A stretch of DNA of 64,000 nucleotides. Origin: Pseudomonadota bacterium. Lineage in GTDB: Bacteria > Pseudomonadota > Gammaproteobacteria > Steroidobacterales > Steroidobacteraceae. The notes beneath the pieces are model-generated. The model ran no database searches and was not told the DNA's origin. It saw only the letters and a list, made by a program, of their open reading frames with translations. Shown piece after piece: positions 23,135 through 61,120 of the stretch. The stretch is from positions 62,001-126,000 of the forward strand of contig JAJYUL010000003.1 of NCBI GenBank assembly GCA_021792555.1, given 5' to 3'. Made by a program: the position numbers and the translations under genes. Position 1 is the stretch's first letter. Every line of letters starts with the position of its first letter.

Positions 23135-23175
23135 TGGTAGCGCTATCATGATACACGGGCCGGCGGCGCCGTAAA
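23135..23175 (-). promoter_or_regulatory. Promoter with XylR-type operator (site a)
   Basis: On the minus strand TTTACG (23175-23170) and TATCAT (23153-23148) are spaced by 16 bp. The 14-mer TGGTAGCGCTATCA (23135-23148, plus-strand reading) begins at the -10 and covers the transcription start. The same arrangement, TTTACG-16-TATGAT with the operator over the start, is found before the GH3 gene. The motif differs by one base from the palindrome TGGTAGCGCTACCA known as the XylR site in Caulobacter. Confidence 0.75.
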
Positions 23176-23229
23176 GCGCCCCGCGGCGCGCACGGCAGGG
23201 GATTGCGCCAGGGGGCGGCGCAGTTGCGC

Positions 23230-23235
23230 TACAAT
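23230..23235 (+). promoter_or_regulatory. -10 candidate for the ATPase-type regulator
   Basis: TACAAT lies 60 nt before the ATG at 23295. TTGCGC at 23203-23208 is the nearest -35-like hexamer but is 21 bp away, so the promoter is only tentative. It diverges from the promoter of the secreted-protein gene. Confidence 0.35.
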
Positions 23236-23294
23236 TTGTCGGTGGGATCCGCCAGCCGGTCCGCCATCCCGATACCTTTGGATCAGCCATTTTC

Positions 23295-25847
23295 ATGCAC
23301 GGTATTGTGCGAGGCGCGACCTGCCTCGAGTTCGGCCGCTTTCGGCTTCTGACCCGCCAGCGCGAGCTGCGCAGCGGCGATACGCCCGTCGCGCTCGGCT
23401 CGCGTGCATTCGACGTCCTGCTGGTGCTCATCGAGGCCGGCGGCGATCTGGTGACCAAGGAGGAGCTGCTCGCGCGCGCCTGGCCCGGGATCGTCGTCGA
23501 GGAAAGCAACATCCAGGTGCAGATCTCGGCGCTGCGCAAGGCGCTCGGCAAGGACCGCAATCTCATCCTCACCGTGCCGCTGCGCGGCTACCGCTTCACC
23601 GGCGAGGTGCGGGTGATCCGCGAGCCGGGCCTGCCGCAGGACGAGCAGGAGGGGCGCGCGCCGCCGACCAATCTGCCGGCGGCCATCTCGGATTTCATCG
23701 GCCGCGAGGCGGAACTCGCCACGGTGCGCGAGCTGCTGCGGCACAACCGGCTGGTGACGCTGGTCGGCACGGGCGGCATCGGCAAGACGCGTCTCGGCCT
23801 GGAGGCGGCCCGCGCCTCGCTCGCGGAGTTCCCCGACGGGGTGTGGCTCGCCGAGCTCGCGCCGCTCACCGACCCGGAGCTGGTGGCGAGCGCCATGCAC
23901 GCCGCGCTCGGCCTGCAGAGCGGCACCGGGCGCTGGACCAGCGAGCGGCTCGCCGCCGCGCTGCGCGAGCGCAAGCTGCTGCTGGTGCTCGATAACTGCG
24001 AGCATCTGATCGGCGCAGCGGCGCGCGAGGCGCAGGCGCTGCTCGCGGCGGCGCCGCAGGTGCGCATTCTCGCCACCAGCCAGGAGCCGCTCGGCATCGA
24101 GGGGGAGTGCACGCTGCGGCTGCGTCCGCTGGAGTTTCCGGCCGAGAACGCCGCCGGGCTCGACAGCGCCGCCCGGCACGATGCGGTGCGGCTGTTCGTG
24201 GCGCGCGCCCGCGCGGCCGATCCACAGTTTTCGCTGAACGAGCAGAACGTCGCCACGGTGGCGATGATCTGCCGGCGGCTCGACGGCATCCCGCTCGCGA
24301 TCGAGCTCGCGGCCGCCCGCTCCGCGGCGCTCGGCATCGATGGCCTCGCGCAGCGGCTCGATCTGCGCTTTCACGTGCTCACTGGCGGGCGCCGCACGGC
24401 GCTGCCGCGCCATCAGACGCTGCGCGCCACGCTCGACTGGAGCCACCGGCTGCTCGCCGAGCCGGATCGGATCGTGCTGCGGCGGCTGGCCGTGTTCGCC
24501 GGCAGCTTCACGCTCGAGGCGGCCGGTCAGGTGGTGGCCGATGCGGCGCTGCCGGAGTGGGAAGTGGTCGGGCGCATCGCCGAGCTGGTGGACAAGTCGC
24601 TGGTGGTGGCCGATGTCACCGGTGCGCAGCGCCGTTACCGGCTGCTCGAGACCACCCACGCCTACGCGATGGAGAAGCTCGCCGACAGCGGGGAGTTCGG
24701 ACCGCTGGCGCGTCTGCACGCCCGGCACTTCCGCGACGCGCTGAACGAGGCGCTCGGGGCCTGGGAGCTCACCCCGTCGGTGCAGTGGCTCGAGCGGCTC
24801 GGGGCGGAGATCGACAACGTGCGCGTGGCGCTCGACTGGGCGTTCGGCGCCGACGGCGACCCGGCCATCGGTGTGGAGCTCGCGGCCTCCTCGTATCTGC
24901 TGTGGTATCTGCTCTCGCTGATGCCCGAGGGCCGCGCGCGGCTCGAGCGGGCCACCGCGGCGCTCGGCCGCGAGACGCCGAAGGCGCTCGAGGGCCGGCT
25001 CTGGTACGGCTACGGCTTTCTCTCGACCGGCGAGCCGCGCGGGCGCGCGGTGCCGGCGCTGCGCCGCGCGGTGACCCTGCTGCGCGAGGCCGGCGAGCCG
25101 CTCGATCTGGCCCGTGCGCTCGCTTTCTACGGCCTGAACCTGGCGCGCACCGGCGCGCTCGGCGAGGGGCTTGCGGCGCTCGAGGAGGGGCGCGCACTGC
25201 TGTCCCCCACGGCGCAGCCGAAGAGTTACGCGCTGTGCCTGACCAACCTCGCCATCGCCCGCACGGTGGGCGGGGAATACGCAGCGGCACGAGCGCGCCT
25301 CGACGAGGCGCTCGCGGCCGGCCAACGCTCGCACGCGGACTTCTGGGCCTGGCGCGCGCTCATCTACAAGGCGGAAGTGCAGTTCGCCGAAGGCCGCGTC
25401 GATGAGGCCATCGCCGGGGCGCGCGAGGTGGTCGCGCTCGCCCGCGCGGCGCGGCGCACCGGTCTGCTCGGGCACGCGCTGTGCAACCTTGCCGGGTATC
25501 TGATCGCGCATGGGGAGATCGAGGCGGCGAGCGCGGCGCTGCGCGAGGGGCTGCCGCTCGCCGAGGAGAGCGAGCTCGATACGGTGCTGATCGCCGGCGG
25601 CATGCAGCATCTGGCGACCATCGCGGCGCGCCAGCAGCGCTTCGAGCGCGCCGCGCAGTTCATCGGCTATGCGCACGCGTTCTTTTCGGCGGAATTCGCC
25701 GGCCGCAGTCCGGCCAAGCTGATGATCGAGGCGGGGATTCTGGAACAGCTGCGCGCGGCGCTGCCCGAGGAGCGCCTGGCGGAGCTGATGCAGGCCGGCG
25801 CCCGCTGGAGCGAGGATGAGGCCATGGCCGCTGCGCTCGATGCGTGA
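23295..25847 (+). CDS. Winged-helix / NB-ARC-type ATPase / TPR transcriptional regulator
   Basis: 850 residues. An OmpR-type winged helix (about 10-105, ending LILTVPLRGYRFTGEV) is joined to a STAND-class ATPase with Walker A GTGGIGKT (158-165), Walker B LLLVLDNCEHL and sensor motif ILATSQEPLGIEGE. From about residue 480 there is an Ala/Leu-rich helical array that reads as TPR-like repeats. Such proteins (AfsR/SARP-like ATPases in proteobacteria) are signal-responsive regulators with unknown ligands. It is divergent from the secreted-protein gene, across an intergenic region that carries operator site a. Confidence 0.88.
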   Translation: MHGIVRGATCLEFGRFRLLTRQRELRSGDTPVALGSRAFDVLLVLIEAGGDLVTKEELLARAWPGIVVEESNIQVQISALRKALGKDRNLILTVPLRGYRFTGEVRVIREPGLPQDEQEGRAPPTNLPAAISDFIGREAELATVRELLRHNRLVTLVGTGGIGKTRLGLEAARASLAEFPDGVWLAELAPLTDPELVASAMHAALGLQSGTGRWTSERLAAALRERKLLLVLDNCEHLIGAAAREAQALLAAAPQVRILATSQEPLGIEGECTLRLRPLEFPAENAAGLDSAARHDAVRLFVARARAADPQFSLNEQNVATVAMICRRLDGIPLAIELAAARSAALGIDGLAQRLDLRFHVLTGGRRTALPRHQTLRATLDWSHRLLAEPDRIVLRRLAVFAGSFTLEAAGQVVADAALPEWEVVGRIAELVDKSLVVADVTGAQRRYRLLETTHAYAMEKLADSGEFGPLARLHARHFRDALNEALGAWELTPSVQWLERLGAEIDNVRVALDWAFGADGDPAIGVELAASSYLLWYLLSLMPEGRARLERATAALGRETPKALEGRLWYGYGFLSTGEPRGRAVPALRRAVTLLREAGEPLDLARALAFYGLNLARTGALGEGLAALEEGRALLSPTAQPKSYALCLTNLAIARTVGGEYAAARARLDEALAAGQRSHADFWAWRALIYKAEVQFAEGRVDEAIAGAREVVALARAARRTGLLGHALCNLAGYLIAHGEIEAASAALREGLPLAEESELDTVLIAGGMQHLATIAARQQRFERAAQFIGYAHAFFSAEFAGRSPAKLMIEAGILEQLRAALPEERLAELMQAGARWSEDEAMAAALDA

Positions 25848-41170: not shown

Positions 41171-41200
41171 ATGGTAGCGGTATCATCCGTCTCCCGTCAA
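41171..41200 (-). promoter_or_regulatory. xylA promoter with XylR-type operator (site b)
   Basis: On the minus strand TTGACG (41200-41195) and TACCAT (41176-41171) are 18 bp apart. The operator TGGTAGCGGTATCA (41172-41185 on the plus strand) supplies the -10 hexamer itself, so binding would exclude RNA polymerase. The same design is found before xylB and the SGNH gene. Confidence 0.8.
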
Positions 41201-42756: not shown

Positions 42757-42812
42757 TTGACACCGAGCCGAGAGCAGGACCATACTCGGCCCGTCGTCAG
42801 GTAGCGGTACCA
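42757..42812 (+). promoter_or_regulatory. TonB-receptor operon promoter with XylR-type operator (site d)
   Basis: TTGACA (42757-42762) and CATACT (42781-42786) are 18 bp apart. AGGTAGCGGTACCA (42799-42812) lies about 6 to 20 nt after the expected start of transcription, so repression would act as a block to initiation or early elongation. The leader to the ATG at 42941 is about 150 nt. Confidence 0.65.
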
Positions 42813-45900: not shown

Positions 45901-46177
45901 GGCGCGCTTCACGGTCAATTGGACGGGCAAGCTGCTGCTGCTGACGGGCCAGGAGCAAGGTGGTGGCGCGTTCGGCAATGAGCCGGTCTACCAGGCTCCG
46001 GCCACGCAGCTGGACTTCGCCACAAACTACCAGGTGGACAAGTACCTGAACGTCTACTTCAACCTGAACAACATGCTGAACACGATCTACCACACGTACG
46101 GACGATTCTCGAATCAGACGTTGAACCTGGTTGAGTACGGACGTTCGCTCTCGTTCGGAGTGCGAGCCCGGTTCTGA
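42941..46177 (+). CDS. TonB-dependent receptor (Caulobacter/Xanthomonas glycan type)
   Basis: 1078 residues. Signal peptide with cleavage near AHA-QN (about residue 50), a Pro/Lys/Ala-rich linker, a TonB box (EPIIVTGIR, about 130), the plug domain (SLQRSLQIKRES to about 270), and a 22-strand barrel ending with the usual aromatic residue (SFGVRARF). This receptor type imports oligosaccharides in Caulobacter and Xanthomonas. Its operator (site d) and operon partners suggest xylo-oligosaccharides, perhaps aldouronic acids. GAGGGGG 8 nt upstream supports the start. First gene of an operon that runs to 52414. Confidence 0.93.
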   Translation: MSRKTLRNASKHAFKKNAGFGVLGRTAYAKIGLSGLALGSLSLAANGVAHAQNAPATKRSNQPPIPGKAVKAKRRGFKATPLASAGLFSANGAGLYAQNNTAPAGAAGNGNDTFKQGNSVAASATELEPIIVTGIRGSLQRSLQIKRESIGVVDAISAETIGQFPDSSIGGALAHLPGVTINRGSLVYSSAFGAPTATGLPQGFNVNGFGGSFNTVLMNGRQIASGNGQTFNVATIGAMYVGEIDTLKTPDMALSSGNIGSVVNIKMLTPFQNPGMHGGVNIGGTDYPMDGGIRPAVGAMFSDTFDHNKFGFLVDGDYEDYRTLTHHQDIVGWKGIAAGGFACSDLAANYTTAFGSTGCASVGPGATGNAQVPVWYPQDMAMYLERIDTRSKDGRVVLQWHPTNAVMVTLDENYSSWDQHINRWQRSTWFGAFPDATLDGNGTITNFNYTGPTDFNAFVADQYIVTNTYGLNVLWNVNADWTLNVDADQSKSQLNPNGTYSDVDSDVGFGNNANNYTGGLVLNSNSNVLPYWSAYGPNAVASGSSAVASPNYNGLNPFIIGSHVFPLQTQENTDQINEARVSATWNPGNTTKLQFGAQFLDDDWNTKEMDTFTNNYWELWGGYGPASGNTQGVALPSTLFSQASLGTWMPGYSGGGNLPSSLLLYNPYAVLNYLIGQPVDSQFAPTPGYPNYTGGIPAEALSIGSVQHVSRMNYAPFVQVSHKFKVDGMRLWTRFGLRYQRTDEVIAGLSAPLTKVVWQGASDPTAYAFGTGSPQWTQVDKSYGYLLPALDLALWPTQDFETAFDFSRTESAPGNYQLIPNTSYGGRVNALTATGNNPGLLPYLSNNYDLRLTWYYAHGDYAELHPFYKQVSNFPTSSVTDVTVPINDPAPCSYSSGGHLVFTDSGCGKPMVFAETTYTNKLSADVTGVSGTWQQMLPYGFGFMLNGTWMHSNANFNNFSLASNQFALTGVGSSANATAFYQRGKWQARFTVNWTGKLLLLTGQEQGGGAFGNEPVYQAPATQLDFATNYQVDKYLNVYFNLNNMLNTIYHTYGRFSNQTLNLVEYGRSLSFGVRARF

Positions 46178-46178
46178 T

Positions 46179-47726
46179 GTGGTAAGTCCCGTCAAATCGG
46201 TCGTCATCGTCGGCGGAGGAACCGCCGGGTGGCTCACCGCAGGCACCATTGCCGCCCGCCTTCAATCTCGGATGAAGGCGGGCGGCTTGTCCGTCACGCT
46301 GATCGAGTCTGCGGACATTCGGGCGATCGGTGTGGGGGAGGGTACGTGGCCGACGATGCGCTCGACGCTCGCGCGGATGGGCGTGTCGGAGACCGCGCTG
46401 TTGCGCGAGTGTGATGCGGCGTTCAAGCAGGGAGGGCAGTTCGTCGGCTGGACCACGGGAGAGGCGGGTGATTCGTACTACCACCCGCTGATGGTGCCGC
46501 AGGGTTTCTCGCAAGTGAATCTCGTGCCGCACTGGCTGCGGGACGGGGGGGCGATGAGCTTCTGCGATTTCGTGACTCCGCAGGGCCGGCTGTGCGATGC
46601 GGGGCTGGCGCCGAAGACGATCACACATGGGGAATATCGGGCAGTCGCGAACTACGCCTATCACCTGGATGCGGGCAAGTTCGGGCCGTTCCTCGCCAAG
46701 CATTGCATCGAGAAGCTCGGCGTGCGCCATGTCCTGGCGGACGTCGAGGGCGTCAATCAGCACGAGAACGGTGACATCGCGAGCCTGCGTACCGCGCAGG
46801 CCGGAGAGATTACGGGCGATCTGTTCGTCGATTGCAGCGGCTTCTCGGCGCTGCTGATCGGCAAGACGCTCGGCGTGCGGTTCAAGGAATGTGGGGACAT
46901 CCTGCTGTGCGACACGGCGTTGGCCGTGCAGGTGCCGTTTGCGACGCCGGATGCGCCGATGGCCTCGCACACCATCGCGACCGCGCATGAGGCGGGGTGG
47001 ACGTGGGACATCTGTCTGCCGACCCGCCGCGGGGTCGGCTATGTGTATTCAAGCCGCCATACCAGCGAGGAGGCGGCCCGCGAGACGCTGCTGCGCTACA
47101 TCGGTCCGCAGCACAAGAATCTGCCCGTGCGCAAGATTCCGATCCGCGCCGGACACCGCGAGACATTCTGGAAGAACAACTGTGTGGCGGTGGGGCTCGC
47201 GGGCGGCTTTCTCGAGCCGCTCGAGTCCTCCGCCATCGTCCTGGTCGAGCTCTCGGCGAAGCTCCTCGCGGAGCAGATGCCCGCATGCCGGGAAGTGATG
47301 GACATCGTCGCACGGCGCTTCAACGACGTGACGATGTACCGTTGGGGCCGGATCGTCGATTTCCTCAAGCTGCACTATGTGCTGACACAGCGCACCGACA
47401 CGGCGTTCTGGCGGGACAACGTGGATCCTGCTACCGTCCCCGACCGGCTGAAGGACCTGCTGACGTTGTGGAAGTATCAGTCACCGTGGTTCTTCGATGA
47501 GCTCGATCGTCTCGAGGAGGTGTTCCCCGCGGCGAGCTACCAGTACGTGCTCTACGGGATGGGCTTCCAAACCGAAGTCGTGCCGGAGGAGGCCGCGGAT
47601 ACGGCGGCGGCTGCCGCCCGCTTCGTGCGCGAGAACGAGCAGATGACGAGCGAGATGAGTACGCGCTTGCCGAAGAACCGCGAGCTGCTGAATAAAATAT
47701 ACCAATTCGGGCTGCAGCCCGTCTGA
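46179..47726 (+). CDS. Flavin-dependent (tryptophan) halogenase family protein
   Basis: 515 residues starting with a GTG 1 nt after the TonB-receptor stop. FAD motif GGGTAGWLTAG, active-site Lys in AAFKQGGQF and Glu in GGFLEPLESS are present, but the WxWxIP motif reads WTWDICLP, with Cys where Pro is expected. The 516-codon frame is otherwise complete. Halogenase-like genes of this group recur next to TonB receptors with SapC and cupin-like genes, for unknown reasons. An in-frame TTG at 46131 would overlap the receptor gene and is less likely. Confidence 0.88.
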   Translation: MVSPVKSVVIVGGGTAGWLTAGTIAARLQSRMKAGGLSVTLIESADIRAIGVGEGTWPTMRSTLARMGVSETALLRECDAAFKQGGQFVGWTTGEAGDSYYHPLMVPQGFSQVNLVPHWLRDGGAMSFCDFVTPQGRLCDAGLAPKTITHGEYRAVANYAYHLDAGKFGPFLAKHCIEKLGVRHVLADVEGVNQHENGDIASLRTAQAGEITGDLFVDCSGFSALLIGKTLGVRFKECGDILLCDTALAVQVPFATPDAPMASHTIATAHEAGWTWDICLPTRRGVGYVYSSRHTSEEAARETLLRYIGPQHKNLPVRKIPIRAGHRETFWKNNCVAVGLAGGFLEPLESSAIVLVELSAKLLAEQMPACREVMDIVARRFNDVTMYRWGRIVDFLKLHYVLTQRTDTAFWRDNVDPATVPDRLKDLLTLWKYQSPWFFDELDRLEEVFPAASYQYVLYGMGFQTEVVPEEAADTAAAAARFVRENEQMTSEMSTRLPKNRELLNKIYQFGLQPV

Positions 47727-47744: not shown

Positions 47745-48482
47745 ATGACCCAGATCGTACCGCTCAACAAAGAGACACATCGTCACCTCAAGGTCGACGG
47801 CCGTCCCTCGGCCGCATACGGCGATAACCAGCACTTCGTGCAGGTGATCATCAACGAGTTTCCGCACCTGGTGGTTCACTACCCGATCCTGTTCGGCAAG
47901 CAGCGGGACACGGGCGAGTTCTTCTGCGGGGTGATGCTGGGATTCATCGAGGGTGAGAACCAGTTTCTCGATGACTGGCGGGGCGATCCGGAGTTCTATC
48001 GGCCGCTCAGTCTGCAGCGCGTGCCGTTCTATGCCCATGGACCTGAGCTGGCGATCGATGTGGATCATCCGCGGGTCAACGCCGAGGGCGGCAAGGAGCT
48101 GTTCACCGAGCACGGCCAGCCGACCCGGTACCTGCAGAGCATCATCTGGGCGTTCCAGGATCTGCAGCCCGGCATCGAGCGGACCCGGATTTTCATCGCC
48201 CGGTTGCTCGAGCTGAACCTGATCGAGCCGGTGGACATCGAGGTCGAGTTCGAAGACGGCACGCTGCGCCATTGCGAGGGCCTCTACACGGTCAACCAGG
48301 AAGTGCTCTCGCGCATTCCGGATGCGGTGGCGCTCGAGCTGTTCCGCCGGGGCTATCTCACGCTCATGCACCTGATGATCGCCTCGCTGAAGCAGGTGCG
48401 CGTGATGGCGCGGACCAAGAATGCGCGGCTGCTGAAGCACACCGAGACGCTGGCCATCACGCCTGAGGCGAAGGCGAGCTGA
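47745..48482 (+). CDS. SapC family protein
   Basis: 245 residues. It matches the SapC family (named for S-layer transport in Campylobacter) in the conserved blocks HFVQVIINEFPHLVVHYPILFGK, FYRPLSLQRVPF and RALLxLNLIEPxxxEVEFEDG-type sequence (here LLELNLIEPVDIEVEFEDG). No signal peptide or membrane segment is visible, so it should be cytoplasmic. Its biochemical role is unknown. It sits 18 nt after the halogenase in the receptor operon, the usual place for this family in glycan-type TonB loci. Confidence 0.9.
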   Translation: MTQIVPLNKETHRHLKVDGRPSAAYGDNQHFVQVIINEFPHLVVHYPILFGKQRDTGEFFCGVMLGFIEGENQFLDDWRGDPEFYRPLSLQRVPFYAHGPELAIDVDHPRVNAEGGKELFTEHGQPTRYLQSIIWAFQDLQPGIERTRIFIARLLELNLIEPVDIEVEFEDGTLRHCEGLYTVNQEVLSRIPDAVALELFRRGYLTLMHLMIASLKQVRVMARTKNARLLKHTETLAITPEAKAS

Positions 48483-48505: not shown

Positions 48506-49525
48506 ATGGCGCACCGCCCAGCCGAGATCGCCGGCCGCGATCTGTCGGGACCGGAGCAATTCCGCAGTGAGGTTCTCGAGGCCTGCCGGCCGGTGGTGCT
48601 GCGCGGCCTGGTGTCCGAGTGGCCGGCGGTGCAGGCCGCGCGCCGCTCGCCGCGGGAGTTGATTCGGTATTTCGCAGCGTTCGACGCGGGGCTGCCGGTC
48701 GAGGCGTTCGTCGGCGAGGCGGCCATTGCCGGCAAGTACTACTACACGCCGGATCTGAAGGGATTCAACTTCGAGCGGCGGCAGCTGAAGTTTCTCGAGG
48801 CGCTCGAGGCGATGCTCGAGACTCTGCAGCGGCCGCAGGCCGAGACGCTCTACGTCGGCTCGGTGCCGGTGGCGCAGTGCATGCCGGGGTTCCTCGGCGC
48901 CAATCCCATGCCGCTGCTGCCGCCCACGGCGGGCGCGCGCATCTGGGTGGGGCATCCCTCCAACGTCTCGAGCCACTACGATACCTTCGACAATCTCGCC
49001 TGCGTGATCGCAGGCCGGCGGCGCTTCACGCTGTATGCACCGGAGCTGATCGGCGAGCTGTACATGGGCCCGATCGACCATACGATGGCCGGTCCCCCGG
49101 TGAGCCTGGCAGCCTCGGCGGATCCGCCGAGCGCGCAGCGCTATCCGCTCTTCGAGCGCATCCGCGACCAGGCGCTCGTGGCGGAGCTCGAGCCCGGCGA
49201 TGCGCTGTATCTGCCGAAGCTGTGGTGGCATCAGGTCGAGGCGCTCGCGCCGTTCAACGCGATGATCAATCATTGGTGGGACGCGTTCAGCGCGGGCCCC
49301 GATGCCCCCTACACCAGCCTGCTGCTCGCCATGATCGCCATCGCCGAGCGTCCGCCGGCCGAGCGACGGGCGTGGAAGGCCTTTTTCGATCATTTCGTGT
49401 TCCGCACCCGCGGCCACCCGCTGAAGCACCTGCCGAGCGAGCAGCACGGGTTGCTGGGGCCGCTGAAGCCGCACAATTACGGGCACATCCGCGCGCGCAT
49501 CATGCGACTGATGCGGGGCGGGTAG
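48506..49525 (+). CDS. Cupin-like (JmjC-type) protein
   Basis: 339 residues. N-terminal PVVLRGLVSEWPAVQAAR is typical of the cupin_8/JmjC group. The double-stranded beta-helix carries a HxD iron motif in SSHYDTFDNLACVIAGRRRFTLYAP and the distal His in LYLPKLWWHQVEAL, so a 2-oxoglutarate and Fe(II)-dependent oxygenase is likely. The C-terminus is a helical dimerisation region. Substrate unknown. It follows SapC by 23 nt. A frameshifted second copy lies immediately downstream. Confidence 0.9.
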   Translation: MAHRPAEIAGRDLSGPEQFRSEVLEACRPVVLRGLVSEWPAVQAARRSPRELIRYFAAFDAGLPVEAFVGEAAIAGKYYYTPDLKGFNFERRQLKFLEALEAMLETLQRPQAETLYVGSVPVAQCMPGFLGANPMPLLPPTAGARIWVGHPSNVSSHYDTFDNLACVIAGRRRFTLYAPELIGELYMGPIDHTMAGPPVSLAASADPPSAQRYPLFERIRDQALVAELEPGDALYLPKLWWHQVEALAPFNAMINHWWDAFSAGPDAPYTSLLLAMIAIAERPPAERRAWKAFFDHFVFRTRGHPLKHLPSEQHGLLGPLKPHNYGHIRARIMRLMRGG

Positions 49526-51370: not shown

Positions 51371-52414
51371 ATGACAGTCGCTGCATCACGAGAGATGGCC
51401 GCACATCGCCGCATCGCCTGCTTCGGTGAGATGCTCCTCAGGCTCGCGGCGCCGCGCGGGCAGGTATTGCGTGCGGCGGGGGAGCTCGATGTGTTCGTCG
51501 GCGGCGCCGAGGCCAACGTCGCGGTCGCACTCTCGCACCTCGGTCATGCAAGCGCCATGATCACCGTGCTTGCGGACAATCCGCTCGGCGCGCTCTGCGG
51601 GGCCGAACTGCGCCGCCATGGGGTCGACTGCGCCGCGGTGCGCACCGGGGCGGGCCGGATGGGCTTGTACTTCCTCGAGCGCGGCGCGGGACAGCGCCCC
51701 GCGCGGGTCGTCTATGACCGGGAGCACTCGGCGTTCTGCCGCGCGATGAGCGCACCGTTGCCGTGGGAGGCGCTGCTTCAGGGCAGCGCCTGGCTGCACG
51801 TCTCGGGGATCACCGCGGCGCTCAGTGATGCGGGCGCGCAGACTCTGCTCGCCGCCGTGCGCGCGGCGCACGCACGGCAGATGTCGATTTCGTTCGACTG
51901 CAACTATCGCCCCTCGCTGTGGCGGGACCGCGCGATGCAGGCCGGCGCGGTGCTGCGCGAAGTCGCGGCGCACGCCACGGTGCTGTTTGCCAGCGAGCAC
52001 GATCTGGCCCTGATGCTGCAGCGCGCGGCCCCTGAGGCCTCGGGCCCGGAGTCATTTGCGGCTGCCGCGCGCGAGGCGCTCGAGCGCTTCGGTGCGCTGC
52101 GTCTGATCGCAACCACGTTTCGCCAGGAGAGCGGCGCGGATGAGCAGACACTCTCGGCAGCCTGTCTTACCCGGGACGGGCTCTCGCGGTCGCGGACCTA
52201 TGCGTTGCGCGGCATCGTCGAGCGCATCGGCAGCGGCGATGCCTTCGCCGCCGGCGTGCTCCACGGCGTGCTCGGCGGCGCGGATCCGGCGCGCGCGGTT
52301 GAACTCGGCGCCGCGAGCGCCTGCCTGAAGCACACCGTCGCGACGGACTTCAGCCTCGCCACCGGCGAGGAGCTCGAAGCGCTCCTGCGCGGGCAGGCTG
52401 CGCTCGTGCGCTGA
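51371..52414 (+). CDS. kdgK: 2-keto-3-deoxygluconate kinase (PfkB family)
   Basis: 347 residues. PfkB kinase with FGEMLLRLAAP at the start, GGAEANVAVALSHLG, the KDG-kinase-type DCNYRPSLWRD, and the catalytic GSGDAFAAGVLHG. It phosphorylates KDG to KDPG, the last step before cleavage to pyruvate and glyceraldehyde 3-phosphate. Its place in the receptor operon, with mannonate dehydratase and a hexuronate transporter 10 kb away under the same operator, indicates use of glucuronate from the substrate. A second ATG at 51395 is possible. Confidence 0.9.
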   Translation: MTVAASREMAAHRRIACFGEMLLRLAAPRGQVLRAAGELDVFVGGAEANVAVALSHLGHASAMITVLADNPLGALCGAELRRHGVDCAAVRTGAGRMGLYFLERGAGQRPARVVYDREHSAFCRAMSAPLPWEALLQGSAWLHVSGITAALSDAGAQTLLAAVRAAHARQMSISFDCNYRPSLWRDRAMQAGAVLREVAAHATVLFASEHDLALMLQRAAPEASGPESFAAAAREALERFGALRLIATTFRQESGADEQTLSAACLTRDGLSRSRTYALRGIVERIGSGDAFAAGVLHGVLGGADPARAVELGAASACLKHTVATDFSLATGEELEALLRGQAALVR

Positions 52415-52434
52415 GCGCCCCGGGGCGCCTCAGC
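52410..52434. terminator. Hairpin spanning two convergent stop codons
   Basis: GCTGAG.CGCCCC and GGGGCGCCTCAGC pair with a single bulge. The structure covers the TGA of kdgK (52412-52414) and the stop of the minus-strand esterase (52430-52432), so it could end both transcripts. No T-tract on either side. Confidence 0.5.
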
Positions 52435-53908
52435 GCACGCGGCGGGTCGCCGGCCGCGTCAGGGCCTGGTTGGGCACGAACGTCCCGCCGTGTGCGAGCT
52501 CCGCGAGCAACTCCTCCGAGCGTTCGGACCAGGGCGCCTGCTCGTCGGGCGTGATGTTCATGTGGTCTGAGTCAACGAGCGGCACGGCTTCCTTGGGCGC
52601 GGGGATTTGATTGAGCACGGTCCAGATGCCCGCCGGCGGCGCGGTGGTGTCGATGAAGCCCATCGCGATCAGCGTCGGCGCGGTGATGTGGGAGGCGAAG
52701 TTGACCGGGTCGAAATACGCCGCCGTACGCAGCACCGCCGGGTCGGTCGTGCTGTAGAACGGATAGCCCGGCCGACGGCCGTGCGCCAGCCCGTTCATGT
52801 CCGCGCCCGAAGGCTCATCGACGATCACGGCGCTCACCTTGCCGGGGTTGAGCCCGGCGGTGGCCAGGCTCTGCTGCCCCCCCATGCTGACACCGGTGAG
52901 CACCACGGTCTTGCCGTTCCAGTACGGGCTGTGGCGGATGTAGTGCAGCGCGCGGGTGTCGCGCAGGTACATGTCGAGGAAATATGAGGTGTCGGGACTG
53001 CGGTCGCCGATCTGTGGGTAGTTCTGCGGCACGCCGGCTGCGCTGCCCGGCGCGATGTCGTGCGAGTCGACGTCGAGCGTGAGCCAGCCTTCTGCGGCGC
53101 GATTGGTGGCCCACGCGGTGCGCAGCGCATAGACGCCCGCATATTGATAGATGACGAGCGCCGGGAACCTGCCGCCGCGCGCCGGCACGGCGAGGTAGCC
53201 GCGCACGTCCGAGCCGAGGCTCGTGATGCGCACACGGAACAGTCTCACGCCGGCCTGGGCGGTGGGGATGGGGGTGAGCTTGGCGCGCATCGGCACCTTG
53301 GCGAGTGCGGCCAGCTTGCCCGCCCAGAACGCCCCGAAGTTGCGCGGCGCCGGCACGGACGGGCGCAGCAGAGTCGGGGCGAGCGCAGCGCCGAGCGTCG
53401 TGACACGGTGCTCGGCGAACGCCCCGGACGGAAACTGCGGGGCGAGCGGCTGGTAGTGCGGATACCGGGCGAGCAGGCCGCGCAGCGCCGGGTCCGTCTT
53501 GATGAGCAGCGCCCTAAGACCCTGATTCAGCGTCCCGTAGTCTTTGAGCGGTAAGGCGGTGGGGGAAGGCTCGTAGTCGACGACGACGTACAGCATCGCC
53601 GGCGCATCGAACCGGGTGCCGAAGGTGGCCTTGCCCGTCTTCAGCGAGAAGCTGCCGGTCTTCACCACGTCGAGATCATTGCGCTTGATGGTGTAGCTGA
53701 AGCGGCCGCGCGGCTGCGGCGCGCCCGGGGGCACCGTAACCGTCCAGCCGACCTGCTCGCCGAGACGGTAGATGCCGTCGGCATGAAACGGCGTGAAGGT
53801 CACCTGCGGGATCGAGGCGAGCGCCGCAAGCGGCAGCAGACACCCGGCGAGCGTCAGGCCGAGGGCACGGGCGGCGCGGCCGGCGGAAGTGGCGGGGGCG
53901 GGAGTCAT
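52430..53908 (-). CDS. Acetyl-xylan-esterase-like (CE7/AXE1) secreted esterase
   Basis: 492 residues. Signal peptide (about 14-32), an extra beta-rich N-terminal domain (about 35-185), then an alpha/beta hydrolase of the CE7 type. The nucleophile is Ser341 in TGVSMGGQQSL, the acid lies in MGFIDTTAPP and the His in DSDHMN; GYLAVPARGG..PALVIYQYAGV marks the domain start. CE7 enzymes remove acetyl groups from xylan or xylo-oligosaccharides. The N-terminal domain is not part of typical CE7 proteins. Last gene of a three-esterase operon, with a 4-nt overlap with the CE15-like gene. Confidence 0.85.
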   Translation of the reverse strand: MTPAPATSAGRAARALGLTLAGCLLPLAALASIPQVTFTPFHADGIYRLGEQVGWTVTVPPGAPQPRGRFSYTIKRNDLDVVKTGSFSLKTGKATFGTRFDAPAMLYVVVDYEPSPTALPLKDYGTLNQGLRALLIKTDPALRGLLARYPHYQPLAPQFPSGAFAEHRVTTLGAALAPTLLRPSVPAPRNFGAFWAGKLAALAKVPMRAKLTPIPTAQAGVRLFRVRITSLGSDVRGYLAVPARGGRFPALVIYQYAGVYALRTAWATNRAAEGWLTLDVDSHDIAPGSAAGVPQNYPQIGDRSPDTSYFLDMYLRDTRALHYIRHSPYWNGKTVVLTGVSMGGQQSLATAGLNPGKVSAVIVDEPSGADMNGLAHGRRPGYPFYSTTDPAVLRTAAYFDPVNFASHITAPTLIAMGFIDTTAPPAGIWTVLNQIPAPKEAVPLVDSDHMNITPDEQAPWSERSEELLAELAHGGTFVPNQALTRPATRRVR

Positions 53909-55479
53909 CGCTCGTGTACCTTGTGCTGTGGATGGTGGTAGTGGATGAAGCGGTCCACCCAGGCGATGAAGTACCTCATGTTGGGTGCATCGGTGTGGCC
54001 GCCATCATCCTGCCGCCAGGCCAGCCGTCCCGACAGCAGGCCGTGGTCGACCGGCGGCATGCGCGCGGTGAGGGGGTTGCCGCGCACGCCGAGACCGCGG
54101 ACCCCGAGCAGCCGGTACACGGCGCTCGCGGCGACGGTGGCCATGAAGCTGCCGCGCTGATCCAGCCAGCGCGCATCGCCCATGGCGGGGATACCGTAGC
54201 TCACGAACAGCAGCCGCGGCGCGCACAACGCGATCAGCTCGTTCGAGTCGACCGGCAGATCGCCGGGGGTGCGGCTGCCGAAGGCGGCCTGCTCGGCGTC
54301 GTAGCGCAGGAAGTTGCCGGCCATCCACTGATACTCGCCGGTGCCGGCCAGATTGCCGACGGTCTCCCCGAAATTGCGCCGCAGCGGGGTGCTGCCGCCT
54401 TTGCCCGAGGAGCCGATCAGGCCCATGGCGAAGCGCGGATCGAACGCCATGGCGAGCAGCGCCGCCTTGCCAAAGCGTGACACGCCCTCGATGCCGATGT
54501 GTGCGCCGTCGACCGCCGGATCGGCGCGCAGATAATCCAGCGTGCGGCTCGCCGCCCACGCCCAGGCGCGCAGCGCGCCCCATTGGCCGGGCGTGCGCGG
54601 CTGGCCTTTGTTGGTCAGACCGATGATGCCGCGGGTCAATCCTGCGCCGCTGTCGGCCTGCACCGCGGTGGGATCGAGCGAGGCGAAGCCCCAGCCGGCA
54701 CCGATCAGCTGCACCACCGAGGGCGGGCCGCCGTCGACGTTGCGCCGCAGCGGCGAGAACATCGGGCGTCTGATCAGCTTGGCGTGCGGATGGCGCTGCA
54801 GCACCGCCCGCGCGGCCGGATCCTGGTGCGCGAGCGCGGTGCGCAGCGCGGAGTTGAGTTCGGCGAGCTGCCGCCGGTCGGGGCCGGTGCGCGGCACGGG
54901 CGGCGCGCCGTAGGTGAACATGATCAGCACCGGAACGCGGCGGCCGGCTGCGGCCGGCGTGACCAGCATCACCGGTATCGCGACGTGAATCAGCGGATAG
55001 GCGCTGTTGTCCACCACGCCGAGGAGGCGGCGGTAGGTGACGGGGTAGCCGCCGAGTGTCGTGCGTCCGCGGTTCACGACCTTCCAGGTCACGCGGGGCA
55101 CCCGGTGCGGGATCCGGCCGTAGACATCACGCTCGAATGCGGCAACGATCTGCGGGCGGCGCGTGTGCCACCACATGCGGGCGCTGCTGACCTTGCGGCC
55201 GTCGGGCAGTCTCAGCGCATCGGGCAGCGCACCGTAGGGATCGGCCAGCGCTTCGTCGTAGTTGGCGTGGCGGGACGAGTTCTCGTTGCCGCTCGCGCCC
55301 GGCCGGAGCATCCGGATGCCCAGCTGCTCCATCATGTTGCGATGGTCCTCTCGCGTGGTGAAGGTCACCGGGGCTGGCCACGGATGCGCGGGTGCGGCGC
55401 GTGTGCACAGCGGCGCGCAGGCGAGCGCGGTGAGCAGCGCGCCTGCGCGGGCGCGCGGCTCGCCCGCGCGCGAGCTCAT
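53905..55479 (-). CDS. CE15-like glucuronoyl esterase, secreted
   Basis: 524 residues with an N-terminal signal-like segment (ALLTALACAPLCTRA). The alpha/beta hydrolase domain has the CE15 nucleophile motif GVSRFGKAALLAMAFDPRF (Ser334), the oxyanion Arg335, and the catalytic His in DDGGHTD (His495). The conserved upstream VQLIGAGWGFASLDPT and RTLDYLRADPAVDG match bacterial CE15 proteins. CE15 enzymes cut the ester between lignin and the 4-O-methylglucuronate side chain of xylan. It overlaps both neighbours by ATGA junctions and is under operator site e. Confidence 0.88.
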   Translation of the reverse strand: MSSRAGEPRARAGALLTALACAPLCTRAAPAHPWPAPVTFTTREDHRNMMEQLGIRMLRPGASGNENSSRHANYDEALADPYGALPDALRLPDGRKVSSARMWWHTRRPQIVAAFERDVYGRIPHRVPRVTWKVVNRGRTTLGGYPVTYRRLLGVVDNSAYPLIHVAIPVMLVTPAAAGRRVPVLIMFTYGAPPVPRTGPDRRQLAELNSALRTALAHQDPAARAVLQRHPHAKLIRRPMFSPLRRNVDGGPPSVVQLIGAGWGFASLDPTAVQADSGAGLTRGIIGLTNKGQPRTPGQWGALRAWAWAASRTLDYLRADPAVDGAHIGIEGVSRFGKAALLAMAFDPRFAMGLIGSSGKGGSTPLRRNFGETVGNLAGTGEYQWMAGNFLRYDAEQAAFGSRTPGDLPVDSNELIALCAPRLLFVSYGIPAMGDARWLDQRGSFMATVAASAVYRLLGVRGLGVRGNPLTARMPPVDHGLLSGRLAWRQDDGGHTDAPNMRYFIAWVDRFIHYHHPQHKVHER

Positions 55480-56871: not shown

Positions 56872-56900
56872 ATGGTAGCGATATCAGGCCGAAGGGACAA
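56872..56900 (-). promoter_or_regulatory. Esterase operon promoter with XylR-type operator (site e)
   Basis: On the minus strand TTGTCC (56900-56895) and TACCAT (56877-56872) are 17 bp apart. The operator TGGTAGCGATATCA (plus-strand 56873-56886) overlaps the -10 exactly as at xylA and xylB. Confidence 0.8.
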
Positions 56901-56933: not shown

Positions 56934-56963
56934 TTGACACTGTCGGAGTGATATCGCTACCAT
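56934..56963 (+). promoter_or_regulatory. xylB promoter with XylR-type operator (site f)
   Basis: TTGACA (56934-56939) and TACCAT (56958-56963) are 18 bp apart, and the operator TGATATCGCTACCA (56949-56962) contributes the -10. Transcription would begin near 56970, about 10 nt before the ATG at 56980, so the leader is very short. Sites e and f are identical 14-mers in mirror orientation, 63 bp apart from end to end of the divergent region's two outer T residues. Confidence 0.8.
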
Positions 56964-56979: not shown

Positions 56980-58452
56980 ATGGGAGCAGCGTCCCTGTAC
57001 CTAGGAATCGACATCGGCACCTCCAGCGTCAAGGCGGTGCTGCTCGAGGAGCACGGCGCCATCGCCGCGCAGACTTCCGCTGCCCTGCAGGTGAGCCGGC
57101 CGGCGCCGGGGTTCTCCGAGCAGGATCCGCGCCAGTGGTGGGAGGCGACGGTGCAGGCCGTTCAGGCGGTGCCGAAAGCGGCGCGCGCGGCGGTGCGGGG
57201 GCTCGGCCTGTCAGGCCAGATGCACGGCGCGACGCTGCTCGATGAGCGCGATCGGCCGCTGCGCCCGGCGATTCTGTGGAACGATGGCCGCTCGGCCGAG
57301 GAGTGCCTGGAACTCGAGCGGCGCGAGCCTGCCGCCCGCGCCATCACCGGCAACATCATGATGCCGGGCTTTACCGCGCCGAAGCTCCTGTGGGTGGCGC
57401 GGCACGAGCCGGAGGTGTTCCGGCGCACCGCGCACGTGCTGCTGCCGAAGGACTACGTCCGGCTGTGCCTGACGGGCGAGCGGGTGAGCGACATGTCCGA
57501 TGCGGCCGGCACGGGCTGGCTCGACGTGGCGCGCCGCGAATGGTCGGACGCGATGCTCGCGGCGAGCGATCTGTCGCGCGCGCACATGCCGCGGCTGGTC
57601 GAGGGCTCGAGCGTCTCTGCAACGCTGACCGCCGCGGCCGCCGGGCAGCTTGGCCTGCCGCGCGTGATCGTCGCCGGCGGCGGCGGCGACAACGCGGCGA
57701 GCGCGGTCGGGCTCGGCGTCGTGCGTCCCGGCCAGGCGTTTCTATCGCTGGGCACCTCGGGGGTGCTGTTCGTCGTCACCGACCGGTTCCGGCCCAATCC
57801 CGAGCGCGCCGCGCATGCGTTCTGCCACTGCCTGCCGCAGCGCTGGCACCAGATGTCGGTCATGCTGAGCGCGGCCAATACGCTCGACTGGATCGCGCAG
57901 ATCGTCGGGGAGCGGGATCTCGGCAAGCTGGCCGCAGCCGCCGAAGCGCAGCGGCTCACGCGCCACTCGCCGCTGTTCCTGCCGTATCTGACCGGCGAGC
58001 GCACGCCGCATAACGATCCGCACGCCCGCGGAGTGTTCTTCGGGCTGCGGCCCGACACGACGCCGGCGGAGCTCGCCGCGGCGGTGCTCGAGGGCGTCGC
58101 CTTCGCATTTGCCGACGGGCTCGACGTGCTCACCGAAAGGAGCGATGCGGTCGGTGAGATCAGCGTGACCGGCGGGGGTGCGCGTGTACCGTATTGGGGC
58201 CGTCTGATCGCCGCGGCACTGCGCCGGCCGCTGACCTATCGCGCGGGCGGGGAGGTTGGCGCGGCGCTCGGCGCGGCGCGCCTCGCCAGGCTCGCCGCCG
58301 CAGATGGCAGCGAGGCCGAGGTCTGCGCCGCGCCGGCGGTGGCGCGCGTCGTGCATCCGGATGCAGCGCTCTCGGCGCTGCTCGCAAGCCGCCGGCGCAC
58401 CTTCCAGCGCCTCTACCGCGACCTCAAGGGCGCATTCGCCGAATTCGCCTGA
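56980..58452 (+). CDS. xylB: Xylulokinase
   Basis: 490 residues, FGGY kinase family. N-terminal phosphate motif YLGIDIGTSSVKAVLLEEHG, the substrate segment GLGLSGQMHGATLLDE with ILWNDGRS, and the C-terminal half with FLSLGTSGVLF, PYLTGERTPHNDP and VTGGGARVPYWG. The MHG motif is specific to xylulokinases within the family. It phosphorylates xylulose made by XylA, feeding the pentose phosphate pathway. No ribosome site can fit in the short leader. Confidence 0.95.
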   Translation: MGAASLYLGIDIGTSSVKAVLLEEHGAIAAQTSAALQVSRPAPGFSEQDPRQWWEATVQAVQAVPKAARAAVRGLGLSGQMHGATLLDERDRPLRPAILWNDGRSAEECLELERREPAARAITGNIMMPGFTAPKLLWVARHEPEVFRRTAHVLLPKDYVRLCLTGERVSDMSDAAGTGWLDVARREWSDAMLAASDLSRAHMPRLVEGSSVSATLTAAAAGQLGLPRVIVAGGGGDNAASAVGLGVVRPGQAFLSLGTSGVLFVVTDRFRPNPERAAHAFCHCLPQRWHQMSVMLSAANTLDWIAQIVGERDLGKLAAAAEAQRLTRHSPLFLPYLTGERTPHNDPHARGVFFGLRPDTTPAELAAAVLEGVAFAFADGLDVLTERSDAVGEISVTGGGARVPYWGRLIAAALRRPLTYRAGGEVGAALGAARLARLAAADGSEAEVCAAPAVARVVHPDAALSALLASRRRTFQRLYRDLKGAFAEFA

Positions 58453-58622: not shown

Positions 58623-61004
58623 TCAGGCGGTCAAATGCAGCAGTGCGGATTTCAGGTGCACCGAGTCCGCTCCGACCATGACGCGCACCTTGCCGGGCTC
58701 GACGACATGGCGCATGTTCTCGTTCCAGATCGCGAAGCTCTTCGGACGCAGCGTGAAGTGCACCTGGGTGGAGGCGCCGGGTGCGAGCCACACCCGCTTG
58801 AAGCCCTTGAGTTCCTTGACCGGCTCGGTCACCGATGTGACGAGCTCGTGCACATACAGCTGCACGACCTCGCTGCCGGCGACCCTGCCCGTGTTGCGTA
58901 CGTTGACCGTGACGGTCACGGCGCCGTGCGCCGGCAGGCTGCCGTCCGAGAGCCGTGGACGGCCGACGTGGAAACTCGTGTAGGACAGGCCGTAGCCGAA
59001 CGGGAAGAGCGGCGAGTTGTCGGCAAACAGGTAGCCGCGATGCGCGCTCGGCTTCTCGTCGTAGTTGTACGGCACCATGCCCACCGAGCGCGGAATGGTC
59101 ACCGGGAGCTTGCCGCCCGGATCGGTCTTGCCGAACAGCACGTCCGCCACGGCGGTGCCGCCTTCCTGGCCGAGATACCAGCCCTCGAGCAGCGCGTTGG
59201 CGCGCGGCAGGATGCGATTGACCGTGACCGGGCAGCCGTTGATCAGCACCACCACGGTCGGCTTGCCGAGGGCGAAGATCGCGCTTGCCAGTCGGTTCTG
59301 GTTTGCGATCAGCCGCAGACTGTCGCGGTCCCCGAGATGATAGGTCGCCCAGCCCTCGCGGCACACCGCGCCGCTCGTGCCGAGCACGAGCACCACCGCC
59401 TGAGCCCGGCGGGCCACCGCGACCGCGTGGCGGATGCGCGGCAGGTTCGCCGCGGTGCTCTCCATCACCTCGCGGTTGGTGTCCTTGTTGCCGTAGGCGA
59501 GTAGTTTCACGCCGCGCGCATACAGCACGCGCACCCGCTTGCCGAGGTAGGTGCGGATGCCCTGCAGCACGCCGATGGGATGATTCGGGATGCCGGAGTA
59601 GCCCCCCAGGCGCGCCGGCGCGGCATTCGGGCCGATGACCGCCAGCGTCTTCAGCCGGCTGACCTGCAGCGGCAGGGTGCCATCGTTCTTCAGCAGCACG
59701 ATCGACTCCTGCGCCGCCTGCAGCGCAAGCGCCCGAGCATGGGCGTCATCGGTGATCTTGCGCGCGTAGCTGAGGCTGGCGTACGGGTGATCGAAGATGC
59801 CGGAGAGGAATTTCAGGCGCAGCACGCCGGCCACTGCGGCGTTGATCTGGCGCATGCTCACCTTGCCCTCGGCGAGCGCCTGCGGCAGGTGAGAGAAGGA
59901 GGTGCCGTTGGGATAGTCGACATCGACGCCGGCGTTGAGCGCCCGCGCCGCCGCGTCCGTGAGGTTGGGCACCACATGGTGGAGGGTTTTCAGCTGCGTG
60001 ATGCCGCCGTAGTCGCTGACCACGATGCCCTTGAAGCCCCAGTCCTTGCGCAGCACCTGCTGAAAGAGCCATGGGTTGGCGGTGCAGGGTATGCCGCCGA
60101 TCTCGTTGTAGGCGGCCATCACGACCTGGGCGTGCGCCTGGGCAATCGCGGCATGGAAGGCCGGCAGGTACATCTGCAGCAGGGTGCGGCGCGTCAGCTC
60201 CACCGGCCCGACGTTGGTGCCCGCTTCGGGCACGCCGTAGCCGGCCATGTGCTTCAGTACCGCGAGGACATGGCCGGGTGCGAGCGGCAGCGTCATGCCC
60301 TGCAGGCCGCGCACCTCCGCGACCCCCATCCGGGCGACGAGGTAGGGATCCTCGCCGAAGGTTTCCTCGATCCGCCCCCAGCGCGGATCACGGCCGAGAT
60401 TGATCACGGGCGTGAGCAGCATGCCGATGCCCTGGGCGCGCGCCTCGCGCGCCACCACGCCGAACACTCGGGTGATGAGCGCCGGATCCCAGGTGCTCGC
60501 CAGCGCGATCGCCTGCGGGAAGCTCGTGGTGCCCCGCGCCACGTACCCGTGCAGCCCCTCGGAGTGGAACAGCGTCGGGATGCCGAGCGGGGTGTGCTCG
60601 ATCTGGAAGCGCTGCACGGCGTTGACGAAGCGGATGGTCTGCGCCGTCGTGCGCAGACGGTACTGGCTCTGCGGATTGTAGTCATCAGGACGGGCGAGCT
60701 GACCGATCCCGTAGGGGAAGTTGCGCGCCGCCTTGGCCGGGTCGAAATCGCCCGCGGCGTTCTCGATCAGCGACTTGTTGTCCCAGAGCGAGGTGATCTG
60801 CGCGAGCTTCTCCTGCAGCGTCATGCGCGCGAGCAGGTCCTTCACGCGCGCCGCAACGGGAGCGTCGGGATCCTTGTAGATGGGCGTGGTGGCGGCGCGT
60901 GCGCCGGGGGTGGCGAGCGCCGCGAGCAGCGCCGTGACGAGGAGCGCGCCGCTGCGGCGCGCACGGATATGGTTGCCCCTCACTGGATCGCCCCCCGAAG
61001 ACAT
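58623..61004 (-). CDS. Secreted glycoside hydrolase family 3 (beta-xylosidase/beta-glucosidase-like)
   Basis: 793 residues: signal peptide, GH3 N-terminal TIM barrel with the substrate-binding KHMAGYG (Lys251, His252) and nucleophile Asp331 in GIVVSDYGGI, the GH3 C-terminal domain (ESIVLLKNDGTLPL, VLVLGTSG), and a fibronectin-III-like domain (VRNTGRVAGSEVVQLYV). Xylosidase or glucosidase specificity cannot be decided by eye; the regulon favours xylo-oligosaccharides. The ATG at 61004 has no ribosome site and sits in the operator-promoter zone. A GTG at 60983 with a GGGGGG run 7 nt upstream would give a cleaner signal peptide and may be the true start. Confidence 0.9.
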   Translation of the reverse strand: MSSGGDPVRGNHIRARRSGALLVTALLAALATPGARAATTPIYKDPDAPVAARVKDLLARMTLQEKLAQITSLWDNKSLIENAAGDFDPAKAARNFPYGIGQLARPDDYNPQSQYRLRTTAQTIRFVNAVQRFQIEHTPLGIPTLFHSEGLHGYVARGTTSFPQAIALASTWDPALITRVFGVVAREARAQGIGMLLTPVINLGRDPRWGRIEETFGEDPYLVARMGVAEVRGLQGMTLPLAPGHVLAVLKHMAGYGVPEAGTNVGPVELTRRTLLQMYLPAFHAAIAQAHAQVVMAAYNEIGGIPCTANPWLFQQVLRKDWGFKGIVVSDYGGITQLKTLHHVVPNLTDAAARALNAGVDVDYPNGTSFSHLPQALAEGKVSMRQINAAVAGVLRLKFLSGIFDHPYASLSYARKITDDAHARALALQAAQESIVLLKNDGTLPLQVSRLKTLAVIGPNAAPARLGGYSGIPNHPIGVLQGIRTYLGKRVRVLYARGVKLLAYGNKDTNREVMESTAANLPRIRHAVAVARRAQAVVLVLGTSGAVCREGWATYHLGDRDSLRLIANQNRLASAIFALGKPTVVVLINGCPVTVNRILPRANALLEGWYLGQEGGTAVADVLFGKTDPGGKLPVTIPRSVGMVPYNYDEKPSAHRGYLFADNSPLFPFGYGLSYTSFHVGRPRLSDGSLPAHGAVTVTVNVRNTGRVAGSEVVQLYVHELVTSVTEPVKELKGFKRVWLAPGASTQVHFTLRPKSFAIWNENMRHVVEPGKVRVMVGADSVHLKSALLHLTA

Positions 61005-61009
61005 TGAGC

Positions 61010-61047
61010 TGGTATCGGTATCATAACCGACTCCGGCCGGCCGTAAA
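61010..61047 (-). promoter_or_regulatory. GH3 promoter with XylR-type operator (site g)
   Basis: On the minus strand TTTACG (61047-61042) and TATGAT (61025-61020) are 16 bp apart. The operator TGGTATCGGTATCA (plus-strand 61010-61023) covers the -10 and the start of transcription. Hexamers, spacing and operator position match site a closely. Confidence 0.75.
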
Positions 61048-61106
61048 CCGAAATCACGGCGGCGACGGTACAAAGTCGGGCCTTGAACGCGGTTGCGGCG
61101 TCGAAA

Positions 61107-61120
61107 TGGGAGCGGTACCA
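61107..61120 (+). promoter_or_regulatory. XylR-type operator overlapping the transporter start codon (site h)
   Basis: TGGGAGCGGTACCA: its last base is the A of the ATG at 61120, and its GGGAG is the ribosome-binding site. It has one mismatch to the consensus (G for T at position 4), exactly the change that creates a Shine-Dalgarno. The promoter must lie upstream (perhaps TACAAA near 61069), so repression would be by roadblock. Confidence 0.6.

Follow-up and report, generated by a model that had tools for sequence, protein, structure and literature searches.

A predicted XylR/xyl-box regulon for glucuronoxylan use that includes two flavin halogenase genes in a Steroidobacteraceae genome

In Xanthomonas, the XylR/xyl-box regulon controls xylan degradation and xylose use (passages in PMC10380989 and PMC7748154), and Caulobacter crescentus XylR is described as a LacI-type repressor that leaves its xyl-box with xylose (as cited in a passage of PMC10380989); the main-text portions of the review PMC4052901 do not name the regulon. 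Here we describe a candidate system of this kind in a 64,000-nucleotide stretch of a Steroidobacteraceae bacterium (the window: bases 62001-126000 of contig C51 in a 3.51-Mb draft genome, G000). The window holds eight copies of a 14-base-pair (bp) near-palindrome, and we are highly confident in predicting that these are operators (xyl boxes) of a LacI-type repressor, P0001, which we call XylR. This reading, proposed in outline in a first-pass annotation of the window, is supported by exact sites at xylan and xylose promoters, by a LacI-family gene with a site in its own promoter, and by the co-occurrence of that gene and the sites across the genus.

The first-pass annotation had placed the sites at 23135, 41172, 42299, 42799, 56873, 56949, 61010 and 61107, and all eight are present there (those at 42299 and 56949 in a minus-strand reading). 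At up to two mismatches, its consensus gives 15 matches on the two strands of the window, covering eight places, whereas shuffled windows gave a mean of 0.93 (standard deviation 1.27, largest 7, 100 shuffles). The description as a 14-bp near-palindrome stands, but the asymmetric form in which it had been written is better replaced by the symmetric palindrome TGRTANCGNTAYCA: the former is exact at four of the eight sites (23135, 41172, 56873 and 56949) and has one mismatch at the other four, whereas the latter is exact at five, 61010 being added, with one mismatch at 42299, 42799 and 61107. Written this way, the operator is an even-length, CG-centred palindrome that is compatible with the published Xanthomonas box, TGGTAGCGCTAACA, at 13 of 14 positions (passages in PMC10380989 and PMC7748154).

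Genome-wide pattern scans, with the reversed pattern as control, found the symmetric form exactly at 9 places (control 1) and within one mismatch at 22 (control 11). Seven of the nine exact places fall within 51.6 kb of contig C51, and the exact motif is found at the promoters of xylan and xylose genes genome-wide; the first-pass annotation had proposed such a genome scan. Eleven of the 22 places are on C51, and four more stand before xylan-type genes elsewhere: two sites 121 bp apart precede a GH10 xylanase gene (C10), one lies between an alpha-L-arabinofuranosidase gene and an M28 peptidase gene (C73), and one has a GH3 gene on one side and, on the other, a gene that weakly matches arabinofuranosidase (C56). 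The predicted regulon thus extends to contigs beyond the window.

Within the window, the genes originally assigned to the sites hold up: the secreted protein, xylA with its halogenase, the TonB-receptor operon, the esterase operon (GDSL, CE15-type and AXE1 proteins), xylB, GH3, and the MFS transporter with manD. The features are as follows (aa, amino acids).

21195..23102, minus strand: secreted 635-aa protein P0002, without Pfam or NCBIfam match; paralogue of P0003
23135..23148, minus strand: xyl box of the secreted-protein gene, exact match; its 33-base offset to the gene start is the same in the congeners G130 and G110
38139..39644, minus strand: FDH1, flavin halogenase of BrvH/Xcc4156 type, behind xylA; PF04820; PDB matches 6frl and 6y1w
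39654..40970, minus strand: xylA, xylose isomerase; TIGR02630 above cut-off
41172..41185, minus strand: xyl box of xylA, exact; right half is part of the -10-like hexamer TACCAT
41263..42015, minus strand: remnant of a DUF5597 (glycosidase-type) gene; three-frame tblastn match with the open G130 homologue
42299..42312, minus strand: xyl box of the decayed gene, one mismatch
42799..42812, plus strand: xyl box of the TonB-receptor operon, with one mismatch; starts with A in each of the six genomes compared
42941..46177, plus strand: TonB-dependent receptor; Plug domain
46131..47726, plus strand: FDH2, flavin halogenase (open frame, whose true start may lie further in); PF04820, PDB 2pyx and motifs
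47745..48482, plus strand: SapC family protein, by domain match
48506..49525, plus strand: Cupin_8 protein, by domain match
51371..52414, plus strand: PfkB-family sugar kinase, by family match; membership of the TonB-receptor operon not established
52430..53908, minus strand: AXE1-type acetyl esterase, by domain match
53905..55479, minus strand: glucuronoyl-esterase-type (CE15-type) protein; PF22244
55476..56804, minus strand: GDSL esterase, by domain match
56873..56886, minus strand: xyl box of the esterase operon, exact match
56949..56962, plus strand: xyl box of xylB, exact; TTGACA, 18 bases, TACCAT
56980..58452, plus strand: xylB, xylulokinase; TIGR01312 above cut-off
58623..60983, minus strand: GH3 glycosidase, by domain match
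61010..61023, minus strand: xyl box of GH3, exact to the symmetric form
61107..61120, plus strand: xyl box of the transporter-manD operon, with one mismatch; lies 97 bases from the GH3 box
61156..62454, plus strand: MFS transporter, called exuT-like on family alone; the best NCBIfam model falls short of its cut-off
62533..63783, plus strand: manD, D-mannonate dehydratase; NF043051 above cut-off
63861..64000, plus strand, continuing to C51:127807: start of P0003, second secreted protein of an uncharacterised family, without Pfam or NCBIfam match

The repressor gene is absent from the window, as had been noted; the window ends at C51:126000, and a LacI-family gene lies at C51:135663-136730, 9.7 kb to the right of that edge and in the same gene cluster. 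Its 355-aa product, P0001, carries a LacI helix-turn-helix domain (PF00356) and a sugar-binding domain (PF13377), both above cut-off. A lacI-family gene with the site in its own promoter had been named as the thing to look for, and a one-mismatch site, TGATTGCGCTATCA, ends 164 bp before the P0001 start. Because the box is in XylR's own promoter, autoregulation is suggested. A further site, an exact one, separates the P0001 gene from a sugar transporter gene. The stretch from the window edge to the repressor holds genes for glucuronate isomerase (UxaC), a GH67 alpha-glucuronidase, a fructuronate-reductase-like (uxuB-like) protein, named by family only since it is below the NCBIfam cut-off, and an aldose epimerase; the divergent GH67/uxuB-like promoter contains an exact site. 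The nearest named matches of P0001 are metagenome bins titled 'Proteobacteria bacterium' (99, 95 and 87% identity). Eight LacI-domain matches were found in the genome, counting a fragment at a contig end. At C34:8220, a one-mismatch site, TGATATCGATATCT, stands close before another LacI-family gene and is possibly a related operator of a sister repressor.

Repressor and sites go together across related genomes. In a sample of 147 genomes from the order, exact sites number 7 to 11 in our genome and in the five that encode an 86-96% identical protein (control 0 to 3). The three other congeners in the sample have 1, 0 and 0 (control 0, 3 and 0), and the remaining genomes have at most 4. Within the genus (58 genomes, with the repressor called present at E <= 1e-100), all 25 genomes with the repressor carry between 2 and 11 exact sites (176 in total; control 21). 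Among the 33 without it, 25 have no site, five have a single site, and the other three have 7, 6 and 3 (total 21; control 9). Two or more exact sites are thus found in 25 of 25 genomes with the repressor and 3 of 33 without it, although these genomes are related and hence are not independent trials. Two of the five one-site genomes have a 50-51% identical relative of P0001.

The boxes precede the same genes in five congeners, including G073 with its different gene order. In alignments of eight intergenic regions containing 11 boxes, the box cores have an identity of 0.96 (110 columns), compared with 0.51 for the other intergenic bases (1959 columns); the aligned regions ended at gene borders, except at xylA, where the outer limit was placed 60 bp past the box. 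Owing to differing spacing, the box at 42299 aligned in only two of the five other genomes, and a direct search finds a box in the other three. The GH3 and transporter boxes are 97 bp apart in all five genomes with that arrangement. This spacing in the promoter region at 60983-61156 is kept although the other intergenic bases there are 55% identical.

The same box accompanies more distant relatives of the repressor. Named genomes were scanned with the repressor alignment and the best 80 loci kept, so there are at least 80; the following counts refer to these. They fall in Alpha-, Beta- and Gammaproteobacteria, including Sphingomonas, Asticcacaulis, Massilia, Pseudoxanthomonas, Luteimonas, Dyella, Steroidobacter, bins titled Caulobacter, and others. 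The exact motif occurs 51 times in 36 loci, compared with 2 for the reversed pattern and a mean of 0.13 (maximum 9) over 285 permuted palindromes. For TGNTANCGNTANCA there are 75 occurrences in 50 loci, compared with 2 for the reversed pattern and a mean of 0.51 (maximum 12) over 352 permuted palindromes. All but one of these 75 sites lie outside called genes, where 10.7% of the bases lie. The labelled genes behind a box are most often those for sugar transporters (31), XylR (22), GH67 (21), GH3 (21) and manD (11); 44 genes are unlabelled. The helix core MTVSRV is shared by P0001 and all 80 relatives and is different in the four paralogues from our own genome that were tabulated.

The boxes were also placed, by eye, relative to promoter-like sequences. 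At xylA, TTGACG (TTGACA in G073) is followed after 18 bases by TACCAT in all six genomes, and at xylB, TTGACA is followed after 18 bases by TACCAT in all five; in both, TACCA is the right half of the box. At the esterase operon, TTGT is found at the same place, with 17 bases, in all four genomes, and at the TonB-receptor operon, TTGACA, 18 bases and CATACT precede the box in all six. A scan of 56700-61200 with a consensus promoter returned two promoter-like sites, both overlapping or touching boxes, versus 0.4 in shuffles. In the congeners, the sequences are clear that the box forms a -10-like hexamer at xylA, xylB and the esterase operon.

From the sites, their positions and conservation, their co-occurrence with the repressor and the gene content, we infer binding, the mode of repression and the inducer as follows. 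Without inducer, XylR dimers would occupy the CG-centred palindrome and deny access to RNA polymerase. The box doubles as the -10-like hexamer at xylA, xylB and the esterase operon, and sits just behind the promoter-like sequence at the TonB-receptor operon; because the boxes overlap or adjoin such sequences, a repressor bound there would exclude RNA polymerase directly. On the simplest view of the circuit, when xylan breakdown products enter the cell, xylose or a xylo-oligosaccharide would free XylR from the DNA. This would switch on uptake (the TonB receptor and sugar transporters), depolymerisation (GH10, GH3, GH67, the arabinofuranosidase-type genes, and the acetyl and glucuronoyl esterases), the xylose branch (xylA and xylB) and the glucuronate branch (UxaC, the UxuB-like protein, ManD and perhaps the PfkB-family kinase, which possibly carries out its last step). 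By gene content and domain matches, the predicted targets make up one pathway.

Several observations weigh against the assignment of the boxes to XylR, and three other explanations were weighed. P0001 reaches the cut-off of no NCBIfam equivalog model, and for that reason the name XylR rests on context and motif. Seven of the 22 genomic places are not at xylan genes (four on C22 and one each on C34, C64 and at C73:31332), which is near the control level, and at two mismatches the asymmetric form is outnumbered by its reversed control (31/36 versus 105/107 matches). The two-mismatch genome scan is therefore uninformative as evidence, and weak sites count only with other support, because the control exceeds the motif at that level. 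One could take these counts, together with the 22 versus 11 places at one mismatch, to mean that the sites are a repeat due to chance or structure and have no role in regulation, but we give that idea almost no probability: exact sites number 9 against 1, they cluster on C51, and they lie before genes and are conserved between species. A chance repeat is rejected by the shuffles, the reversed and permuted controls, the intergenic placement and the core conservation, and is contradicted also by the co-occurrence with the repressor. The idea that the box supplies the -10 element as a general rule was likewise not supported in the distant relatives, where the next base is T at 40 of 101 gene-facing sites versus 9 of 33 facing away (p = 0.14) and the -35 score is the same.

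Other observations concern which protein reads the boxes. Thirty of the best 80 relatives' loci have no box in the flanking DNA examined; in those, the operator may have changed or may lie farther off. Three genus genomes have several exact sites and no close repressor, with best P0001 matches of 41-42% identity in a lower-stringency search: G164 and G168 (7 and 6 sites) are 80% and 84% complete, and G170 (3 sites), at 96% completeness, stays unexplained. Another LacI-family protein, or possibly several with overlapping specificity, could read the boxes, P0001 being a mere neighbour; the eight LacI-domain matches in the genome, the TGATATCGATATCT site before the LacI gene on C34, a LacI gene 5 to 6 kb from the exact site on C73, and G170, with P0001 relatives of 41% or weaker only, would fit. 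We nevertheless think this very unlikely, given the co-occurrence of P0001 orthologues and sites across the genus, the boxes beside P0001 relatives in three classes of proteobacteria, and the different recognition helices of the four paralogues tabulated. A little less improbable, though still unlikely, is that P0001 senses glucuronate or an aldouronic acid and is a glucuronate/glucuronoxylan sensor, not a xylose sensor. The regulon does include GH67, UxaC, the UxuB-like protein, ManD and esterases that act on glucuronoxylan, but the most regular boxes are at xylA and xylB, and the published signal is xylose for the Xanthomonas and Caulobacter XylR and xylo-oligosaccharides for the X. campestris xylR locus (in the parts of the literature cited above). 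We therefore favour XylR, responding to xylose or xylo-oligosaccharides, as the reader of the boxes.

With XylR operators as the preferred reading, the box at 42299 can also be accounted for. The first-pass annotation held that all sites but one lie before a gene; seven do, but the eighth, described as gene-less, faces a decayed minus-strand gene. A G130 homologue, open over 567 aa and carrying a DUF5597 domain, matches 41263-42015 in three frames (tblastn). The G122 and G142 homologues (67% and 70% identical) are in one frame with a box before them, and the G110 homologue is in three frames. Because congeners have open homologues with a box before them and a three-frame remnant is found here, the site once belonged to a gene, and the predicted regulon has lost a member. 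Elsewhere in the window, at 49753-50823 on the plus strand, a second Cupin_8 stretch matches part of the profile only and may have decayed, since this place is occupied in G073 by a cupin gene of 369 aa.

The most surprising feature of the predicted regulon is that two flavin halogenases are part of it and are conserved there. FDH1 is encoded behind xylA and FDH2 behind the TonB receptor. Each aligns almost from end to end with flavin halogenases of solved structure; the closest are BrvH (6frl, E 5.1e-148) and Xcc4156 (6y1w, E 3.8e-138) for FDH1 and 2pyx for FDH2. Both have the Trp_halogenase domain (PF04820), with the segments TFK, WQWRI and EPLES in FDH1 and AFK, WTWDI and EPLES in FDH2; we take these (the second being WxWxI) to mark the catalytic residues, including the catalytic lysine. 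Both genes are in the cluster in all five congeners examined (81-85% identity for FDH1 and 82-89% for FDH2), and in G073, where xylA is elsewhere in the cluster, a one-mismatch box directly precedes FDH1. In G122, the same cluster contains another TonB-receptor gene with a box, and behind it two additional halogenase genes (L074, and L075 reversed, 15446-22683).

Our own genome has six halogenase genes of this type, FDH1 and FDH2 among them. Two further ones are on C69 (L179), in a locus with GH13, GH31, a TonB receptor and a LacI fragment at the contig end, and another is on C67 (L178), with GH27, GH32, a TonB receptor and a LacI gene; the sixth has no sugar genes in view. Five of the six thus share a locus with both TonB receptors and glycosidases, the sugars being xylan and those of starch type and alpha-galactoside/sucrose type. 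Because three of the genes sit in other such loci, the association is one with TonB-receptor sugar loci in general. Among the best 80 repressor-relative loci, 12 have a halogenase; in the flanks examined, a single one of them (L152) has a box ahead of the halogenase operon. In a set of 30 loci picked after seeing which held halogenases, 29 of them searchable, a halogenase was near the repressor in 6 of 29 (0.79 expected; p = 0.024 once related Sphingomonas loci are cut to one), which is weak evidence for enrichment.

Native substrates of BrvH and the X. campestris halogenases are stated as unknown in a passage of PMC7336383, and indole is doubted as the BrvH substrate in a passage of PMC5945002. 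We raise, tentatively and with more doubt than conviction, the possibility that both halogenases work in the xylan regulon with the TonB receptor, acting on a target encountered as plant-wall oligosaccharides are taken up, such as phenolic groups on xylan or a component of the receptor or envelope. If so, a BrvH/Xcc4156-type halogenase would have a job in polymer feeding rather than secondary metabolism.

The two secreted proteins are similarly tied to the boxes, P0002 being encoded directly behind one and P0003 behind the boxed transporter-manD pair. They are paralogues, 45% identical with many invariant acidic residues. No Pfam or NCBIfam match was found for them, and a profile search of solved structures gave one match only (E 0.7). 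A structure predicted from a three-sequence alignment of the family was poor (mean predicted local distance difference test score, pLDDT, 42.6). They are possibly an undescribed glycosidase family. In the congeners G130 (L168:10081) and G073 (L176:9820), an exact box stands before a gene for a large secreted protein of about 860 aa.

The predicted regulon amounts to a glucuronoxylan utilisation system that is close to complete and defined by its regulator, in a lineage for which metagenome bins are the nearest named matches. Its gene list would be what the cell groups together for eating xylan, and ties flavin halogenases and a secreted pair without known domains to a sugar; these become testable, with an expected inducer and a partner receptor.

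Compared with the systems described at the outset, the regulator of Xanthomonas is likewise of LacI type, and its published box differs from the consensus here at one of 14 positions (in the passages cited above). Among the best 80 loci, repressor relatives from the Xanthomonas family stand beside GH67, manD, xylA and xylB; the cluster here, in a different lineage, also has boxes before the esterase operon and the TonB-receptor/halogenase/SapC/cupin operon. Two Caulobacter-titled bins hold repressor relatives of 55-56% identity. Caulobacter uses an oxidative xylose route, whereas xylA and xylB indicate the isomerase pathway here. Overall, P0001 relatives in the Caulobacter and Xanthomonas orders are 49-57% identical and next to the same genes; P0001 may be an orthologue of the characterised XylR proteins. 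FDH1 resembles BrvH and Xcc4156 over nearly its whole length, and in this locus such genes are linked, from sequence alone, to a sugar and a candidate regulator. The features of an XylR/xyl-box system found in the sequence are the regulator domains, the form of the operator, and operators before xylA, xylB, GH3, GH10, GH67 and the esterases. We therefore assign the system, as a prediction, to the XylR/xyl-box regulons of the kind known from Xanthomonas and Caulobacter; what is newly added here is the candidate repressor, the extent of the regulon, an explanation for the orphan site, the promoter layout, and the conserved place of the halogenases and the two secreted proteins.

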